Positions 6,454 through 19,472 of a stretch of DNA of 28,651 bases are shown piece by piece. Below the pieces are notes generated by a model. That model was not told where the DNA came from and did not search any database. It was given only the letters and a program-made list of their open reading frames with translations. The translations under genes were made by a program, and so were the position numbers. Source of the DNA: a virus. Location: positions 1 through 28,651 of the IMG/VR virus record IMGVR_UViG_3300025411_000061, one strand, 5' to 3'. Each line of letters starts with the position of its first letter. Position 1 is the stretch's first letter.

Positions 6454-7650
6454 TTATGCTCCTTTGACGCACATGACTTGTTTGAGAATATGAACCACTT
6501 CGACTAAGTCTGTTTGGTTCGCCATGACTTGATCAATGTCTTTGTAGCTACTAGGAATTTCGTCAATAACTGACGCATCTTTGCGGCACTCGACACCTTC
6601 GGTTTGCTTGATGAGGTCATCAATGCTGAAACGCCTTTTAGCCTCAGCTCTGGACATACTGCGTCCTGCCCCATGCGAACAAGAACAATAGGATTGAAGC
6701 TCACCTTTTCCACGGACAATATACGATTTTTGACCCATAGAACCCGGAATAATTCCCAAGTCTCCTGATCTCGCACGAATAGCTCCTTTACGGGTAACCC
6801 AGAGATTTCGTCCAAAGTGATGCTCCTTTTCGACATAGTTGTGATGGCAATTGATCGCCTCTTGGGTAATCGTGAATTCTTTTGGAATATGCTTTTTGAG
6901 CGCTACCAAAACAACTTCCATCATCAACTTTCGATTTTCCAAAGCATAGTCTTGCGCCCACTGAACGGCTTCCATGTAGTCATTGAAATCTTCAGTGTCC
7001 TCAGGCAAATAGGCCAAGTCTGAATCAGGCAAGCTGATAAAGAATTTTTCCATTTGACGCTTGGCTTTTTCGATGTAGTGCGACCCAATCATGTTGCCAA
7101 TGCCACGAGAGCCAGAGTGAAGCATGACCCACACATCTTGATTCTCATCAATGCAAAGTTCAATGAAATGATTGCCTGATCCAAGTGTGCCAAGTTGGGG
7201 CGCGGCTTTTTTCCAGTAATCACCGGCAATCTCGTTGAGGTTTTCGCAAAGATTGAATGATGTTTTAGGAAGGCGACCTAACCGATTGTTGACCTCTTCA
7301 TCTCGCTGTAAACGACCACCTGCACCCAGCGGGATGTCGCGCTCAATTTGGGCGCGAATATCTTTCAAGGATTCGGGCAAGTCGGAAGCTTTTAATGAGG
7401 TTCTGACAGCATTCATGCCACAACCAATGTCAACACCTACAGCCGCAGGAATGATGGCTTTCTCGGTGGCAATAACAGTGCCCACGGTAGAGCCTTTTCC
7501 TGCATGAACATCAGGCATGCAAACCACGCCATGATGGTTGATAAAAGGTAGACGCGCCAAATTCTTAAGTTGAGTTAGCGCCTCTCCTTCTACATCGTCA
7601 GTCCAAATTTTGATTGGGCGCGAGCCCTCTTCTTGAATGACTTGTTTCAT
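6454..7650 (-). CDS. rtcB: RNA-splicing/tRNA-repair ligase RtcB
   Basis: This 398-residue protein is full length for the family and has every hallmark. They are MPDVHAGKGSTVGTV (45-59), GVDIGCGM with metal-binding D74 and C77, LGSGNHFIEL with H161, HSGSRGIG with H178, NCHHNYVEKE (267-276), the GxIPGSMG loop, SHGAGR with the nucleotidylated H326, and a C-terminal VKG. RtcB joins RNA 2',3'-cyclic phosphate or 3'-phosphate ends to 5'-OH ends using GTP and Mn2+. In a phage this would reseal tRNAs cut by host anticodon nucleases; the tRNA cluster in this window fits that, by inference. It starts 2 bases after the SSB-like gene with no good ribosome site, so translation is probably coupled. No archease gene is seen. 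Confidence 0.97.
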   Translation of the reverse strand: MKQVIQEEGSRPIKIWTDDVEGEALTQLKNLARLPFINHHGVVCMPDVHAGKGSTVGTVIATEKAIIPAAVGVDIGCGMNAVRTSLKASDLPESLKDIRAQIERDIPLGAGGRLQRDEEVNNRLGRLPKTSFNLCENLNEIAGDYWKKAAPQLGTLGSGNHFIELCIDENQDVWVMLHSGSRGIGNMIGSHYIEKAKRQMEKFFISLPDSDLAYLPEDTEDFNDYMEAVQWAQDYALENRKLMMEVVLVALKKHIPKEFTITQEAINCHHNYVEKEHHFGRNLWVTRKGAIRARSGDLGIIPGSMGQKSYIVRGKGELQSYCSCSHGAGRSMSRAEAKRRFSIDDLIKQTEGVECRKDASVIDEIPSSYKDIDQVMANQTDLVEVVHILKQVMCVKGA

Positions 7651-7652
7651 GA

Positions 7653-8312
7653 TCAGAAAGGGATGTCGTCGTCTTCGTCGAACGCAGGCTTCGGTGAGTT
7701 GGCCTCAGCGTTTGCGTCCTTCTGGTAGTCAGCGGCCTTCTTGACCTTTTCAAACTCTGGCGAGTTGATGATCTTTTGTTTCAGGTTGTCGCTGAATGTT
7801 TCAAACAGAACCCAGTCAGGCTCCTGCAGATTGAACATCTCGTTCTTGTTGACCGGATTTGGCAGGCCGTTTTGCTTGATGATGGTGGGCACTGGCGACA
7901 CGCTGTCCACATTGGAGTAGGTGTTGCCATTCTGACCTTGGCGCTCGATCACATTGAGCATGCACCATGCACCCAAAACATTCTTTAGGTCAAACTTGCG
8001 CATCTCTTCTTGGCTGAAGGGCTTACCGCGCCATGACTGTAGATCAAGGCGAAGATTTGCTTTCTCAGACCAACTAAGCGTATAGTTTTTGAAGATTGCA
8101 AAGGGGCGCCCGTCTATCATCTTGAGGGGTTTGCCACTGTCGTCTACACCGTGAAGTTCCCACCCGATCATGATCTTGTGGAGGTACTTGGTTTGACCCA
8201 TATACTCGGACTTTTGTGTGCCCAAGTCCACGATTCGGTAGCACCTTGCTAAGTGCATACCGGGAGGGCTTCGCTCGAAATTCCCACCCTTGTCTTCTAC
8301 ATAAAAGCTCAT
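7653..8312 (-). CDS. Putative single-stranded DNA-binding protein
   Basis: This 219-residue protein has a beta-rich N-terminal two thirds (for example ARCYRIVDLGTQKSEYMG and KYLHKIMIGWEL), compatible with an OB-fold, and a charged helical region after about 165. It ends in DEDDDIPF (212-219), the acidic tipped tail typical of SSB proteins, which recruits replication and repair partners. The tail is seen directly; the fold is inferred. It is the first gene of the leftward operon, with AAGGAG before the ATG at 8312, and it precedes RtcB and the nuclease. It could coat single-stranded DNA during replication or recombination. Confidence 0.75.
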   Translation of the reverse strand: MSFYVEDKGGNFERSPPGMHLARCYRIVDLGTQKSEYMGQTKYLHKIMIGWELHGVDDSGKPLKMIDGRPFAIFKNYTLSWSEKANLRLDLQSWRGKPFSQEEMRKFDLKNVLGAWCMLNVIERQGQNGNTYSNVDSVSPVPTIIKQNGLPNPVNKNEMFNLQEPDWVLFETFSDNLKQKIINSPEFEKVKKAADYQKDANAEANSPKPAFDEDDDIPF

Positions 8313-8371
8313 CTCTTACTCCTTGAAAAACGGTCTTACTGACCTTTACCCGGCGACTGTGCCGTGAAAAG

Positions 8372-8377
8372 ACTATA
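8372..8377 (-). promoter_or_regulatory. -10 box of leftward promoter for the SSB-rtcB-nuclease operon
   Basis: On the minus strand TATAGT (8377-8372) lies about 60 bases before the SSB-like start. The -35 region would fall in the inverted repeat 8385-8401, so one bound regulator could cover both divergent promoters. No strong -35 hexamer is visible. Confidence 0.45.
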
Positions 8378-8384
8378 CCACAAA

Positions 8385-8403
8385 TCTAATTTTGTGTTAG
8401 ACT
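8385..8403 (+). promoter_or_regulatory. Operator/promoter element O1 before the Cro-like gene
   Basis: The inverted repeat TCTAA-N7-TTAGA (8385-8401) has a -10-like TAGACT (8398-8403) overlapping its right arm. Close copies occur at 13770, 14679 and 19163, with diverged forms at 16846 and 21331. It lies 28 bases before the Cro/YdaS-like gene, so autoregulation is likely. The -35 is weak. Confidence 0.65.
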
Positions 8404-8431
8404 ATTTGTTAGAGTTTCAGAAAGGAGTTCT

Positions 8432-8632
8432 ATGAACCTAAAAAAATATTTCGAGGAAGAGCCCTACGGGGCCAAGAAAGAGATGGCTGAGTACCTCGGC
8501 ATCACCCCAACATGGTTGGGATTGTTATTGAGGAAAGCTCGCCGACCTTCAGCAGAGTTGGCAAAGAAGATCGAGAAGGCAACGCAAGGACTGGTCACAG
8601 CAAAAGAACTACGCCCCGATTTATTTGACTGA
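8432..8632 (+). CDS. Cro/YdaS-like helix-turn-helix regulator
   Basis: This 66-residue protein resembles the Cro/YdaS antitoxin-like DNA-binding family. It has a helix-turn-helix at about 14-36 (AKKEMAEYLGITPTWLGLLL), a KARRPSAELAKKIEKAT segment, and the ending ELRPDLFD that is typical of YdaS-type proteins. Such proteins bind short inverted repeats as dimers. It has a good ribosome site (AAAGGAG) and sits just downstream of operator O1, in the divergent region facing the leftward operon. It is therefore the best candidate for the protein that reads the repeated TCTAA-N7-TTAGA operators. Whether it represses or activates cannot be seen. Confidence 0.85.
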   Translation: MNLKKYFEEEPYGAKKEMAEYLGITPTWLGLLLRKARRPSAELAKKIEKATQGLVTAKELRPDLFD

Positions 8633-8651: not shown

Positions 8652-9455
8652 ATGAAAAGAACGCTGAAATTGGTACCCATCAACACCGTGAGGATCGATG
8701 GAGACACCCAATCAAGAGTAGAGATGGACGCCAACTGGATTCAGAAGATCGTTGACGATCTGAAGAATGACATGGAGTACGACCCGATTGAGACACGCTT
8801 TGACGGTTCGCACCACTGGCTATCAGATGGCTTCCATCGCTACCTTGCGTACAAGCAACTTGGCGTGAAGGAAATCAATGTCAACTATTTGCCCGGCTCG
8901 CAGTTTGATGCCCAAGTGGACTCATACGGCGCCAACGGCAAACACGGTAGAGCTCGCACACGGGCCGACAAAGAGCGCAGTGTTGAGAACGCCATTAACA
9001 ACCCACTGCTCAAGGACAAGAGCAACTACGAGATCGCCAAAATCTGCGTGGTATCTCAGCCCTTTGTGGCTTCAGTGCGTGACCCAGAGCGCAAAAAGAA
9101 GCAGGCAGAGAGCGTCAAGAAGCACTTCGAGAAGAAGATTCAAGAGAAACAAAATACTAATTTAATTAGTAGTGAAAAACCAACAGATAGGGAAAATCCC
9201 TACGCCGGTGAGGCGCCCTCAGACGAGGAAATCAAGGCGGCAGAGTTGGCGCTGATTGCTGACCAAGAGGCCATGTACAAGCTCTTGGACTCAGACGATG
9301 CACTGGCGACAGCACACGAAGAAATCAAGCGCCTGAACTACTTGAATGCTCAACTAGAGACACGCCTTCATGGACTCATGAATGAGCGCAACGAGGCCGT
9401 GAAAATGGTCAAGAAACTTCAAAAAGAAAATGACAAACTGAAAGCCAAAAAATGA
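8652..9455 (+). CDS. ParB-like protein (ParB/Srx domain, HTH, coiled coil)
   Basis: This 267-residue protein has an N-terminal ParB/sulfiredoxin-like domain with the signature D59-G-F-H-R63 (LSDGFHRYLAYKQLG). An HTH-like segment follows at about 123-143 (NYEIAKICVVSQPFVASVR), then a basic linker and a long C-terminal coiled coil (about 215-267). ParB-family domains bind nucleotides and, with the HTH, palindromic DNA sites; some phage relatives act as nucleases or regulators. Its linker coding region (codons 168-174) contains one copy of a palindrome that recurs three more times in the genome. AGGAG precedes the ATG, and its stop overlaps the helicase start (ATGA). There is no parA-like ATPase nearby. 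Confidence 0.85.
   Translation: MKRTLKLVPINTVRIDGDTQSRVEMDANWIQKIVDDLKNDMEYDPIETRFDGSHHWLSDGFHRYLAYKQLGVKEINVNYLPGSQFDAQVDSYGANGKHGRARTRADKERSVENAINNPLLKDKSNYEIAKICVVSQPFVASVRDPERKKKQAESVKKHFEKKIQEKQNTNLISSEKPTDRENPYAGEAPSDEEIKAAELALIADQEAMYKLLDSDDALATAHEEIKRLNYLNAQLETRLHGLMNERNEAVKMVKKLQKENDKLKAKK
9155..9171. repeat. Palindrome copy 1 (TACTAATTTAATTAGTA), inside the ParB-like gene
   Basis: A perfect 17-bp palindrome around a central T lies in frame within the ParB-like linker region. The 30 bases that follow resemble those following copy 2 (AAAA-x-CAACA then TAGGG), so the repeated unit is longer than the palindrome. Confidence 0.85.
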
Positions 9456-13054: not shown

Positions 13055-13129
13055 CTGTGCGTAGCGCAGTGGTAGCGCGCGTGTCTTGGGCACACGAGGT
13101 CGTAGGTTCGATCCCTACCGCACAGACCA
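13055..13129 (+). tRNA. tRNA-Pro(TGG)
   Basis: The cloverleaf is perfect. The acceptor is CTGTGCG/CGCACAG (7 bp), the D stem GCGC/GCGC with loop AGTGGTA, and the anticodon stem CGTGT/ACACG with loop CTTGGGC (anticodon TGG at 13087-13089). The T stem is GTAGG/CCTAC with loop TTCGATC, followed by A and an encoded CCA. It reads CCN proline codons, mainly CCA and CCG. Confidence 0.97.
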
Positions 13130-13157
13130 ATCATCATCGAAATTGACCCTATCCCAT

Positions 13158-13235
13158 TGTGGTAGAGCAAGCAAGGTGTATGCGCTCGGCTGTTAACCGA
13201 GAATGAGTTTGGTTCGATTCCAAATACCACAGCCA
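13158..13235 (+). tRNA. tRNA-Asn(GTT)
   Basis: The acceptor is TGTGGTA/TACCACA (7 bp). The D arm has a short GCA/TGC stem and a large loop. The anticodon stem is CTCGG/CCGAG with loop CTGTTAA (anticodon GTT at 13192-13194), and the T stem is TTTGG/CCAAA with loop TTCGATT, followed by G and an encoded CCA. It is 28 bases after tRNA-Pro. Confidence 0.95.
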
Positions 13236-13241
13236 CTTTAT

Positions 13242-13315
13242 GGTGTCGGTAGTGTAGTGGTAGCACGACAGCCTGTGAATCTGTCAGCGAGAGTTCGATT
13301 CTCCCCTTCACCCCA
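13242..13315 (+). tRNA. tRNA-His(GTG), irregular acceptor stem
   Basis: The D arm (GTGT/GCAC), the anticodon loop CTGTGAA (anticodon GTG at 13275-13277), the T loop TTCGATT and a 3' CCA are present. G at 13242 fits the extra G-1 of tRNA-His. The acceptor stem is poor: GGTG pairs with CACC, but the next two pairs are T-T and C-T. The 3' strand is one base short for a G-1 tRNA, the anticodon stem has a C-T closing mismatch, and the T stem has an A-C mismatch. It may be degenerate or need editing or special handling. Confidence 0.75.
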
Positions 13316-13482: not shown

Positions 13483-13769
13483 GATCTCATACTTTGTCGC
13501 TGAATCGGACGCGCACTGGCGGTAGCGATCAGGGACAGCTCTACTACGGGAAAGATGTTGAGATAGAGCAAAGGGTGGCGAAGTGAGTGCCCTTACATCG
13601 AACGACTGACGGGTCAGAAACTCCGACGGGTATCTGTGAAGGCTCATCCTCTCTTGGGAGGGCTGAGTCTGTCCACCTCTGGGTATCAGGAAAGAGACAG
13701 TAAGGTAGAAATAAAGAAAGGGTAATTTTGATTAAGGTCAAAAGACCTTCCATTTTCCCTACGCAAAGT
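13483..13769. other. Gene-free stretch with small inverted repeats
   Basis: No frame with a ribosome site or plausible protein is seen on either strand. Short inverted repeats occur: AAGGG/CCCTT (13571-13594), CTGA/TCAG near 13605-13616, CTCA/TGAG around 13643-13667, CTGTC/GACAG (13669-13700), and a 6-bp hairpin AAGGTC-AAAA-GACCTT (13734-13749). The last is followed by a T-rich but interrupted tract and could be a weak terminator. It may be a third RNA or the 5' flank of the O2 promoter. The evidence is weak. Confidence 0.4.
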
Positions 13770-13791
13770 TCTAATTCCGTGTTAGACTTTT
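13770..13791 (+). promoter_or_regulatory. Operator/promoter element O2
   Basis: TCTAA-N7-TTAGA (13770-13786) overlaps -10-like TAGACT (13783-13788), 27 bases before the oxygenase-like gene. It shares 15 of 17 bases with O1. No good -35 is seen, which suggests dependence on an activator or a modest promoter. Confidence 0.65.
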
Positions 13792-13814: not shown

Positions 13815-14459
13815 ATGGACAAACTTGAAGAGTTCCACTACTTCACCACCCCGATCTACGCGGTGAAGTTGCCACAGTTTTTGGAACCCATTCGCAAGAT
13901 TTCGAATCAATACCTTGCCAAGTCAAGGGCGCGGCACAAGAACAAAAAGAACCCCATGACCGTGATGACTGCAAGCTTCTCGCACGAGCCGGATGCCGCA
14001 GAGTTTGCGCAGTATGTCTCCCAAACCGCATGGAACATCTTCGCGGCTCAGGGCTACAACATGGACAACTTGGTCACCTTCTTTCAAGAGATGTGGACTC
14101 AAGAGCACAACTTCCAATCTGCCATGGAGACTCATGTCCACGGCAACGGCGCGGCGATCAGCGCGTTCTACTTCCTCAACATGCCAAAGAACGCCATGAA
14201 GATGGTGATTCACGATCCACGCCCCGGCAAAGTCATCACCAATTTGCCGGTTAAGGACAACAAGAAAGTCGCGCCTGCATCGACGCAGGTGGTCTTCACG
14301 CCTGAAGAGGGCACACTCATCTTCACACCGGCATGGTTGCCTCACCAGTTCAGCCGCAACCTTAACCGCGAGCAATCGGTGAAGTTCGTCCACATGAATC
14401 TTGGCGTCACGCAAGCACCACAGGAGGCGGCGGCTGACCCTAAAGTGGAGGTGATATGA
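13815..14459 (+). CDS. 2OG-Fe(II) oxygenase-like protein
   Basis: This 214-residue protein follows the pattern of the putative 2OG-Fe(II) oxygenase family common in aquatic phages (2OG-FeII_Oxy_5 type). It has H107-V-H109 (ETHVHGNGAAISAFYFLN), an IHDPRPGK segment (132-138), then GTLIFTPAWLPH177 with downstream R185. Family members use Fe(II) and 2-oxoglutarate to hydroxylate proteins, nucleic acids or small molecules; the phage substrate is unknown. The first metal motif is HxH and not the classical HxD, so catalysis is likely but not certain. AGGAG precedes the ATG. It is the first gene after the RNA island and overlaps the next gene by ATGA. Confidence 0.75.
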   Translation: MDKLEEFHYFTTPIYAVKLPQFLEPIRKISNQYLAKSRARHKNKKNPMTVMTASFSHEPDAAEFAQYVSQTAWNIFAAQGYNMDNLVTFFQEMWTQEHNFQSAMETHVHGNGAAISAFYFLNMPKNAMKMVIHDPRPGKVITNLPVKDNKKVAPASTQVVFTPEEGTLIFTPAWLPHQFSRNLNREQSVKFVHMNLGVTQAPQEAAADPKVEVI

Positions 14460-14683
14460 AATACCGCATTCGCTACAACAAAACCGCAGGCCAACCGGGG
14501 CGCGGCACCGTTGATCACAAGTGGCGCGTGTTCGATGAGAACAACAAAGAGATCATCTGTAAAGGGGTGAAGATTCAATCCGTAGCATGGACAGAGATGG
14601 ATCCAAACGGTGTGGATTGGAACTTCGTCACAGAAGGAAAGTTGATAGTTGAACGAGAGACTTCAACTGTTGTCATTGTCTAA
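14456..14683 (+). CDS. Conserved small phage protein, unknown
   Basis: This 75-residue protein begins MKYRIRYNKTAGQPGRGTVD. I associate this opening with a conserved phage hypothetical, often found near 2OG oxygenase genes in aquatic phages (memory, unverified). It looks beta-rich. It is translationally coupled to the oxygenase by ATGA with GGAGGTG upstream. Its stop codon falls within operator O3. Confidence 0.75.
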   Translation: MKYRIRYNKTAGQPGRGTVDHKWRVFDENNKEIICKGVKIQSVAWTEMDPNGVDWNFVTEGKLIVERETSTVVIV

Positions 14684-14697
14684 TTCTGTGTTAGACT
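14670..14697 (+). promoter_or_regulatory. Promoter with operator O3
   Basis: -35 TTGTCA (14670-14675, 5/6) and -10 TAGACT (14692-14697) are 16 bases apart. The inverted repeat TCTAA-N7-TTAGA (14679-14695) fills the spacer, so a bound dimer would cover the promoter. It drives the small-gene operon from 14738. Confidence 0.7.
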
Positions 14698-14704
14698 CTC
14701 TAAC

Positions 14705-14720
14705 ATCACAATATTGTGAT
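14705..14720. repeat. 16-bp perfect palindrome in a 5' leader
   Basis: ATCACAAT-ATTGTGAT is a perfect palindrome just downstream of the O3 promoter and 17 bases before the next ATG. In DNA it could be a second operator. In RNA it could not form a normal hairpin loop without losing its central pairs. The T-rich stretch after it is interrupted. Confidence 0.75.
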
Positions 14721-14737: not shown

Positions 14738-15043
14738 ATGAGGCTACTTAAGCCAGAAGAGATCGACATCTATGTCAAACGACACGAACGCCGCCGGCAA
14801 CGCTTCGAGACGGAAGGCTTATCTCCTGACGAAGCATGGGAGCTCGCAGACAAACTCTGGGAGCGAGACAAAGACGGTACCGATGACCGGCGTTTGTGTT
14901 TCGAGTGTCAAAACTACAACGACAACAGGAAGACCTGTTCAAAGATTGTTGACCACAAGCGCCAACCACAAACCCCACTGCGATTCATCTTGCAACGCTG
15001 TGAGTGGTTCAAACTGAGGGAGACAAAACATGGTGTCCGATGA
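14738..15043 (+). CDS. Small Cys4 zinc-binding-like protein
   Basis: This 101-residue protein has a charged helical N-terminus (KRHERRRQRFETEGLSPDEAWELAD) and a C-terminal motif C54-x2-C57-x9-C67-x20-C88 (CFECQNYNDNRKTC and LQRCEWF). This pattern occurs as a putative zinc knuckle in phage and mobile-element proteins. GGAGG lies 8 bases before the ATG. It probably binds zinc, while the partner and role are unknown. Confidence 0.75.
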   Translation: MRLLKPEEIDIYVKRHERRRQRFETEGLSPDEAWELADKLWERDKDGTDDRRLCFECQNYNDNRKTCSKIVDHKRQPQTPLRFILQRCEWFKLRETKHGVR

Positions 15044-16836: not shown

Positions 16837-16864
16837 TTGCAAGACTCTAACTTAGAGTTATACT
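16837..16864 (+). promoter_or_regulatory. Promoter with diverged operator O5
   Basis: -35 TTGCAA (16837-16842) and -10 TATACT (16859-16864) are 16 bases apart. The spacer holds TCTAA-C-TTAGA (16846-16856), a compressed form of the operator family, followed by GTTATA. It drives the gene at 16907 and its followers. Confidence 0.7.
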
Positions 16865-16868
16865 TCTC

Positions 16869-16900
16869 ATCACTGCACTGTCGCAGGTTTAATCAAGGAG
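16869..16900 (+). promoter_or_regulatory. Conserved mRNA leader, copy 1
   Basis: The leader ATCACTGCA ... GCAGGTTTAATCAAGGAG matches the leader at 19186-19216 almost base for base. It includes a hairpin CTGC-N6-GCAG (16873-16886) whose stem is the same in both copies while the loop differs, then the ribosome site. It may stabilise the mRNA or boost translation. Confidence 0.65.
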
Positions 16901-16906
16901 ATCGAA

Positions 16907-17227
16907 ATGATCACAGAAGTTCAAGCAAACATTCAAGCCCTCGCAACTGTCGAGTCTCTCGTATCTGACATCGATGCACTCTTTGTGCTCGACCAACAAG
17001 CCAAAGCTCTGGCAGAACAAGTCAAGGCCATGAAAGAGGCCATCGCCAACAAGTACGGCGAAGGCAAACACCAAGGTGAGTTGCACAGCGTTGACATCAA
17101 GCTCGTGCAAGTTAAGGGCACCGTTGATTACGGCAAGCTCTGCGTCTCCTACGGCATCCAAGATGATGTGCTCGACACCTTCCGCAAAGAAGGCCGCGCC
17201 GACATCCGAGTAACCCCAGTCAAATAA
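16907..17227 (+). CDS. Conserved phage protein with coiled coil, unknown
   Basis: This 106-residue protein has an N-terminal coiled coil (LFVLDQQAKALAEQVKAMKEAI, about 25-47) and a small mixed C-terminal domain with a KVTPVK-like end. It has its own promoter (O5) and the conserved leader with a strong AAGGAG site, suggesting high expression. The layout resembles small early phage proteins of the Siphovirus Gp157 kind in outline only. The function is unknown. Confidence 0.72.
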   Translation: MITEVQANIQALATVESLVSDIDALFVLDQQAKALAEQVKAMKEAIANKYGEGKHQGELHSVDIKLVQVKGTVDYGKLCVSYGIQDDVLDTFRKEGRADIRVTPVK

Positions 17228-19150: not shown

Positions 19151-19181
19151 TTGACGACACAATCTAACTTTGTGTTAGAAT
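19151..19181 (+). promoter_or_regulatory. Promoter with operator O4 (best inverted repeat)
   Basis: -35 TTGACG (19151-19156) and -10 TAGAAT (19176-19181) have a long 19-base spacer. The operator TCTAAC-TTTGT-GTTAGA (19163-19179) is the most perfect copy, with 6-bp arms. The long spacer matches the one in the RNA B promoter. Confidence 0.75.
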
Positions 19182-19185
19182 TCTA

Positions 19186-19216
19186 ATCACTGCAACGAAG
19201 CAGGTTCAAACAAGGA
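19186..19216 (+). promoter_or_regulatory. Conserved mRNA leader, copy 2
   Basis: This is nearly identical to the leader at 16869-16900. It has hairpin CTGC-AACGAA-GCAG (19190-19203), then GGTTCAAACAAGGAG and the ATG. The stem is kept while the loop bases change, which supports a functional RNA hairpin. Confidence 0.65.
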
Positions 19217-19223
19217 GTTAGAT

Positions 19224-19472
19224 ATGTCATACATCGCAGAAATTGAAAGCCGTGTCGCAGGCATCCCATGCATCATTGGCGTGACCCACTACGAGTGCGT
19301 GAAGGGCTCTTACAGCTACCACGCCGCCAGTGACTGGGACTACCATGGCTACACCGAGTGTGAGTTCGAAGTGCTTGACCGTCGTGGTCGCAAAGCCGCA
19401 TGGCTTGAGCGCAAGCTTGACGACAAGATGACCCAAGAGATTGAGTCAGAGATTGCTGAATATTTCAACTAA
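19224..19472 (+). CDS. Conserved phage protein, unknown
   Basis: This 82-residue protein begins SYIAEIESRVAGIPCIIGV and contains SDWDYHGYTECEFEVLDRRG and a C-terminal helix. I recognise the pattern as a conserved hypothetical of proteobacterial phages. It is mostly beta in the first 60 residues. It has its own promoter (O4) and strong leader, so expression should be high. The role is unknown. Confidence 0.78.
   Translation: MSYIAEIESRVAGIPCIIGVTHYECVKGSYSYHAASDWDYHGYTECEFEVLDRRGRKAAWLERKLDDKMTQEIESEIAEYFN

Follow-up and report, generated by a model that had tools for sequence, protein, structure and literature searches.

Which protein reads the inverted repeat TCTAA-N7-TTAGA that recurs at the promoters of an uncultured freshwater phage, and what does its binding do? 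The stretch of DNA analysed here (the window) is a contig of 28,651 bp and represents a fragment. Its leftward operon encodes an SSB-like protein (7653-8312, minus strand), the RNA ligase RtcB as second gene (6454-7650, minus strand; PF01139, E 2e-131) and an exonuclease. The SSB-like function is suggested by the C-terminal tail DEDDDIPF of the product; no Pfam match was obtained for this protein, and its PHROG matches (phrog_6599 and phrog_862) are both of unknown function. In the rightward direction, a gene for a 66-aa regulator (8432-8632, plus strand) is followed by genes for a ParB-like protein (8652-9455, plus strand; phrog_1033, E 6e-9) and a helicase. Further content comprises a primase-like gene, tRNAs, small middle genes, a 2OG-Fe(II) oxygenase gene (13815-14459, plus strand; PF13759, E 3e-12; phrog_81), an operon from 14738 containing a RuvC-like resolvase, and terminase and portal genes. 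The genes for tRNA-Pro, -Asn and -His (13055-13314) lie beside a segment (13498-13614, plus strand) that strongly matches the Betaproteobacteria-1 sRNA in Rfam (92.6 bits) and is located just upstream of the promoter at 13770.

Four exact copies of the dyad are present in the window, all on the plus strand and of the form TCTAAYTYYGTGTTAGA(C/A)T. Each overlaps a -10-like box (TAGACT in three cases, TAGAAT in one) upstream of a start codon, as a first, sequence-only reading had described. They are located at 8385-8401 (TCTAATTTTGTGTTAGA) in the regulator's own promoter, at 13770-13786 (TCTAATTCCGTGTTAGA; -10 box TAGACT, 13783-13788) before the oxygenase gene, at 14679-14695 (TCTAATTCTGTGTTAGA; TAGACT, 14692-14697) before the operon at 14738, and at 19163-19179 (TCTAACTTTGTGTTAGA; TAGAAT, 19176-19181) before the gene at 19224. 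The first of these is followed by an additional TTAGA half-site at 8409-8413. In first-order Markov simulations of the window the exact dyad was absent from 299 of 300 runs and occurred once in the remaining one. When all 5-bp dyads with spacers of 0-20 were considered, none came to four copies in 40 simulations. Matches with up to two mismatches numbered 13, against 6.1 ± 2.3 expected.

Two diverged forms had been proposed as additional members, and one of them holds. The site at 16846 (TCTAACTTAGAGTTATACT) has one mismatch; the operator TCTAACTTAGAGTTATA (16846-16862, plus strand) precedes the gene at 16907 and has a -10 box TATACT at 16859-16864. Since about 35 relatives carry a canonical site at the orthologous promoter, it is considered a genuine diverged member. 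The other form, at 21331 (CTAAGAGTTACACTTAT), was rejected: it deviates from the composite motif by three mismatches, and relatives carry no dyad in the promoter region of terminase. A one-mismatch match at 19206 coincides with the Shine-Dalgarno/start region of the next gene and was also rejected. The description of the family as genome-wide had to be given up. A near-identical relative of 53,156 bp encodes the same regulator and holds the same four exact dyads with no further exact ones, and in relatives nearly all sites are found either in the intergenic region next to the regulator or 3.5-10 kb downstream of that gene. The site set is limited to early and middle promoters.

YdaS/HTH_3-type sequence spans the whole of the small 66-aa protein. 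It matches YdaS_toxin (PF15943; E 8e-11, 42 bits with a cut-off of 30, residues 12-65), the transcriptional repressor family phrog_35 (E 6e-12) and, among solved structures, the chains 8co2/8c7k, which were deposited as Cro antirepressor, and carries Gly30 in the predicted recognition helix TPTWLGLLLRK. The Pfam label "toxin" is no guide to function here because YdaS of the prophage CP-933P is a Cro analogue. The palindrome at 8385-8401 is situated between the regulator and the divergent genes and is conserved in relatives; the genes opposite the regulator encode the SSB-like protein and RtcB and not a CI-type repressor as in a lambdoid switch. Fifteen near-complete relatives of 44-57 kb were searched for tyrosine integrases (PF00589) with no match, which alone does not prove a lytic lifestyle. 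The relatives also lack matches to the single-subunit RNA polymerase PF00940 (T7 control positive) and to the sigma70 region-2 family PF04542 (cellular controls positive), and a promoter family for a phage RNA polymerase or sigma factor was rejected on this result. Since no tyrosine integrase, T7-type RNA polymerase or sigma factor was matched in the 15 relatives, these data agree best with a Cro-like autorepressor that works on promoters of the host sigma70.

Most plausibly, the TAGACT boxes represent extended -10 boxes for host sigma70 (TGTTAGACT). In the rightward regulator promoter the box at 8398-8403 (plus strand) is preceded by TGT and overlapped by the operator's right half, and TGTGTTAGACT, which covers this half and the -10 box, is nearly fixed at the regulator promoter of relatives. 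The left half of the dyad is placed at about -25 to -21. Back to back with this promoter, the leftward SSB-rtcB promoter has a -10 box TATAGT at 8372-8377 (minus strand). Its counterpart in relatives reads TGTTATAGT with TC(T/A)AA or TTTAA 7 bp ahead, and many relatives possess an own in-register leftward half-site, TC(T/A)AA-N7-TTATAgt, so that three half-sites with a 12-bp pitch serve two back-to-back promoters. The window has a single shared dyad, which matches the register of the rightward promoter alone; immediately next to it lies the leftward -10 box.

That the right half is itself an extended -10 box and that the sites are always oriented with transcription would also be expected if the motif were a mere promoter class, read by host sigma70, a phage polymerase or a phage sigma factor, with its symmetry incidental. 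Such a class leaves the left half unexplained, which is fully conserved at fixed spacing at -25 to -21, where to our knowledge sigma70 makes no sequence-specific contact. This half also changes with the helix of the regulator, as detailed below, and neither of the two phage factors was matched in the relatives (PF00940, PF04542). We therefore regard a mere promoter class as improbable.

The link between regulator and dyad was examined in about 100 related loci retrieved using the regulator itself plus three of its diverged versions. Unique sites were counted with the test motif TNWAAY-N4-TGTTANANT, in which the second base is free. Next to Gly30 regulators 120 of 121 unique sites have C at this position, i.e. 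TC(T/A)AA, and next to Ser30 regulators the base is T in 23, G in 5 and C in 4 of 32 sites, mostly TTTAA. A clade with K26/A30 has the operator TGTAA...TTACA. Both halves of the dyad shift together (TTTAA...TTAAA and TGTAA...TTACA), and the motif with four wrong spacings yielded 7 matches in total. The 0.84 Mb around Gly30 regulators contain 101 perfect copies of TCTAA-N7-TTAGA, and the 0.74 Mb around Ala/Ser/Phe30 regulators none. Residue 30 was picked after inspection of the data; in a scan of all 65 regulator columns, run as a check on that pick, column 30 had the highest mutual information with operator base 2. In statistical terms column 30 is hence the best predictor of this base, and the recognition helix would set the DNA specificity.

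These sequences are related, and kinship remains a caveat for the association. On a tree of four neighbouring proteins the regulator and site traits each change at least five times; among independent pairs three agree and none disagree, a number of changes too small for a significant sign test. L037 (Gly30) has four C sites and its sister genome L054 (Ser30) three T sites; all sites found in the two have changed along with residue 30. Exceptions are L045 (Ser30 with TCAAA), L062 (Phe30) and some K26/A30 genomes whose site is of the C type. In relatives, the promoters orthologous to those of the oxygenase gene, the 14738-type gene and the 16907-type gene carry the same site, and three phages that share the SSB-like gene and gave no regulator match have no site in 129 kb. 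A scan of viral contigs for the site returned 107 stretches, with a strong regulator match in one of 24 records outside the regulator set; these are mostly single-site records, many of them fragments, and chance matches are expected in so large a collection. The comparison of relatives indicates that the dyads are probably docking sites for the phage's own Cro-type protein, changing genome-wide with one residue. As the link of the 66-aa protein to the dyad is one of predicted binding, another factor such as a host regulator could in principle own the sites. However, an operator lies within the regulator's own promoter, the site changes alongside the 66-aa protein, and this protein is the sole HTH_3 match in 13 of the 15 near-complete relatives, all of which makes another owner very improbable.

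We thus consider it likely that TCTAA-N7-TTAGA is the operator of the 66-aa regulator and that a bound dimer occludes RNA polymerase in a Cro-like feedback and temporal switch. The operator assignment is well supported by comparative data, which establish the site family, its position in promoters and its joint change with the regulator. A regulator dimer bound to the 17-bp dyad would cover the spacer and the -10 box of promoters of the host sigma70 type, often with an extended -10, and so block access of the polymerase. By this, the regulator would limit its own expression in a negative feedback, and as it accumulates would shut down the middle operons and the SSB-rtcB promoter that lies back to back with its own; one dimer may occlude both divergent promoters. 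The idea that the protein runs one regulon is supported for its own promoter, for SSB-rtcB through the half-site of the relatives, and for the operators that change together with residue 30. It has to be narrowed to early and middle promoters, without the site at 21331, and the leftward promoter of the window lacks an in-register dyad of its own.

Repression is probably the likeliest mode of regulation, yet the same binding might activate middle promoters, for instance if it reshaped a long spacer. Several mid promoters have the dyad between -35-like and -10 boxes with spacers of 16-19 bp, as well as imperfect -10 boxes; in some of this class TTGACA-like boxes are found about 19 bp from the -10 box, a spacing also found with MerR-type activators. 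Activation seems unlikely, as the right half covers the -10 box itself, the regulator's own promoter has no -35 box, and a studied YdaS/Cro relative represses from such positions (PMC8630535).

A second feature, missing from the sequence-only reading of promoter and operator, is a hairpin 7-8 nt past the -10 box at most regulated promoters of the window. Hairpins were located at 8351-8364 (minus strand; CGGC-acagtc-GCCG in the leftward mRNA, 7 nt past the -10 box), 14705-14720 (ATCACA-atat-TGTGAT), 16873-16886 (CTGC-actgtc-GCAG) and 19190-19203 (CTGC-aacgaa-GCAG), the last three on the plus strand; the promoters of the regulator and the oxygenase have none. With transcription starting 6-8 nt past the -10 box, the mRNAs would begin with a stem-loop. 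Counterparts of the hairpins occur in relatives, and because the folds in the window are modest at 16846 and 19163, the case for the hairpins rests on these. In an offset test that asked for a Watson-Crick stem of at least 4 bp starting 6-8 nt past the -10 box, 31 of 35 leftward sites (shuffled mean 1.4) and 80 of 92 middle sites (shuffled mean 2.5) were positive. No stem was present at any of the 21 promoters of the regulator class or at any of the 21 of the oxygenase class; the oxygenase zero is partly built in, as that class was sorted partly by missing common stem letters, a procedure that does not affect the regulator zero. The leftward hairpin covaries strongly (29 sequences, 97.7% paired, five of six pairs changed on both sides), with far lower values in slid controls. 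Stems vary inside one genome (CTGC, CCAC, CGGTC), and thus structure is kept and not sequence.

Paired 5' ends of mRNA slow RppH- and RNase E-dependent decay (PMC3997798), and our literature search gave no clear precedent for hairpins directly behind phage promoters. Tentatively, each Cro-type operator-promoter and the 5'-terminal RNA hairpin joined to it at a constant distance of 7-8 nt could form a two-level cassette. One phage gene set would then be under control at the DNA, and its messages would be tagged or protected at the RNA, so that they might, for instance, escape decay in the host or be recognised by an RNA factor of the phage. This cassette of operator-promoter and hairpin is the less ordinary part of the system.

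Other leader elements were observed. The SSB leader has a second hairpin, GGTC-agtaa-GACC, around 8330-8345 (minus strand), whose GTCCTACGGGAC-like forms in relatives apparently compensate as well. In ten relatives a conserved, structured-looking leader (GGGGAAAGCGGATGCTG ... GCAGCGAGTACCCC) is situated about 100 nt ahead of the regulator gene, between it and the promoter; this leader is absent from the window. Its closing stem seems to covary, one example tested had no match in Rfam, and it represents a candidate for a new RNA element. A different conserved late-leader element (TATGCGCTGAAACGANTGCGCGACAAAGGACTGGAATATGACC) lies before the terminase region of several relatives, with a diverged form in the window near 21345-21385.

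Three close homologues of the regulator (65-82%) are located in MAG bins named Betaproteobacteria/Burkholderiales, which suggests this group as the host. An uncultured phage lineage with matches to betaproteobacterial MAGs thereby gains a predicted master regulator and regulon. The natural pairs Gly30/TC(T/A)AA, Ser30/TTTAA and Lys26/Ala30/TGTAA make DNA recognition by YdaS/Cro proteins testable, and if the hairpins matter, these phages would link control of transcription to control at the RNA level within a single repeated cassette. What appears to be new is that a Cro-like regulator with no evident CI partner is combined with dispersed promoter operators coupled to 5' hairpins.

Several parts of this arrangement have counterparts in known systems. 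Lambda Cro is a small protein that binds 17-bp operators overlapping early promoters and represses its own synthesis. The phage studied here resembles it in the small Cro-type protein and the 17-bp operators on early promoters, and autorepression would be a further likeness; in contrast to the clustered triplets of OR and OL, its operators are scattered over many operons, and no CI gene is seen. YdaS of the cryptic prophage CP-933P in E. coli O157:H7, a Cro analogue, footprints over and regulates both divergent promoters; it belongs to the same family, is encoded beside a divergent operon and has palindromes overlapping promoters (PMC8630535). It acts together with the CI analogue PaaR2 and the CII analogue YdaT on 18-bp GTTTAGTAA palindromes (PMC8630535), whereas our phage has single 17-bp sites over five promoters in 11 kb, usually no second HTH_3 protein and, as judged from PF00589 in relatives, no integrase. 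In Cluster A mycobacteriophages, too, a single phage regulator has numerous oriented sites in each genome, the stoperators, whose consensus diverges with the repressor among relatives (PMC6550527). Unlike our sites, which are symmetric and all within promoters, these 13-bp stoperators of temperate phages are asymmetric, number up to about 30 per genome and lie mostly away from promoters (PMC6550527). Lastly, the 5'-terminal stem-loops of ompA and papA stabilise bacterial mRNA (reviewed in PMC3997798) and, like the predicted ones here, are located at the extreme 5' end of the message; in contrast to these, the hairpin of our phage is a recurring promoter part, set at a fixed offset and built from different stems in one genome.
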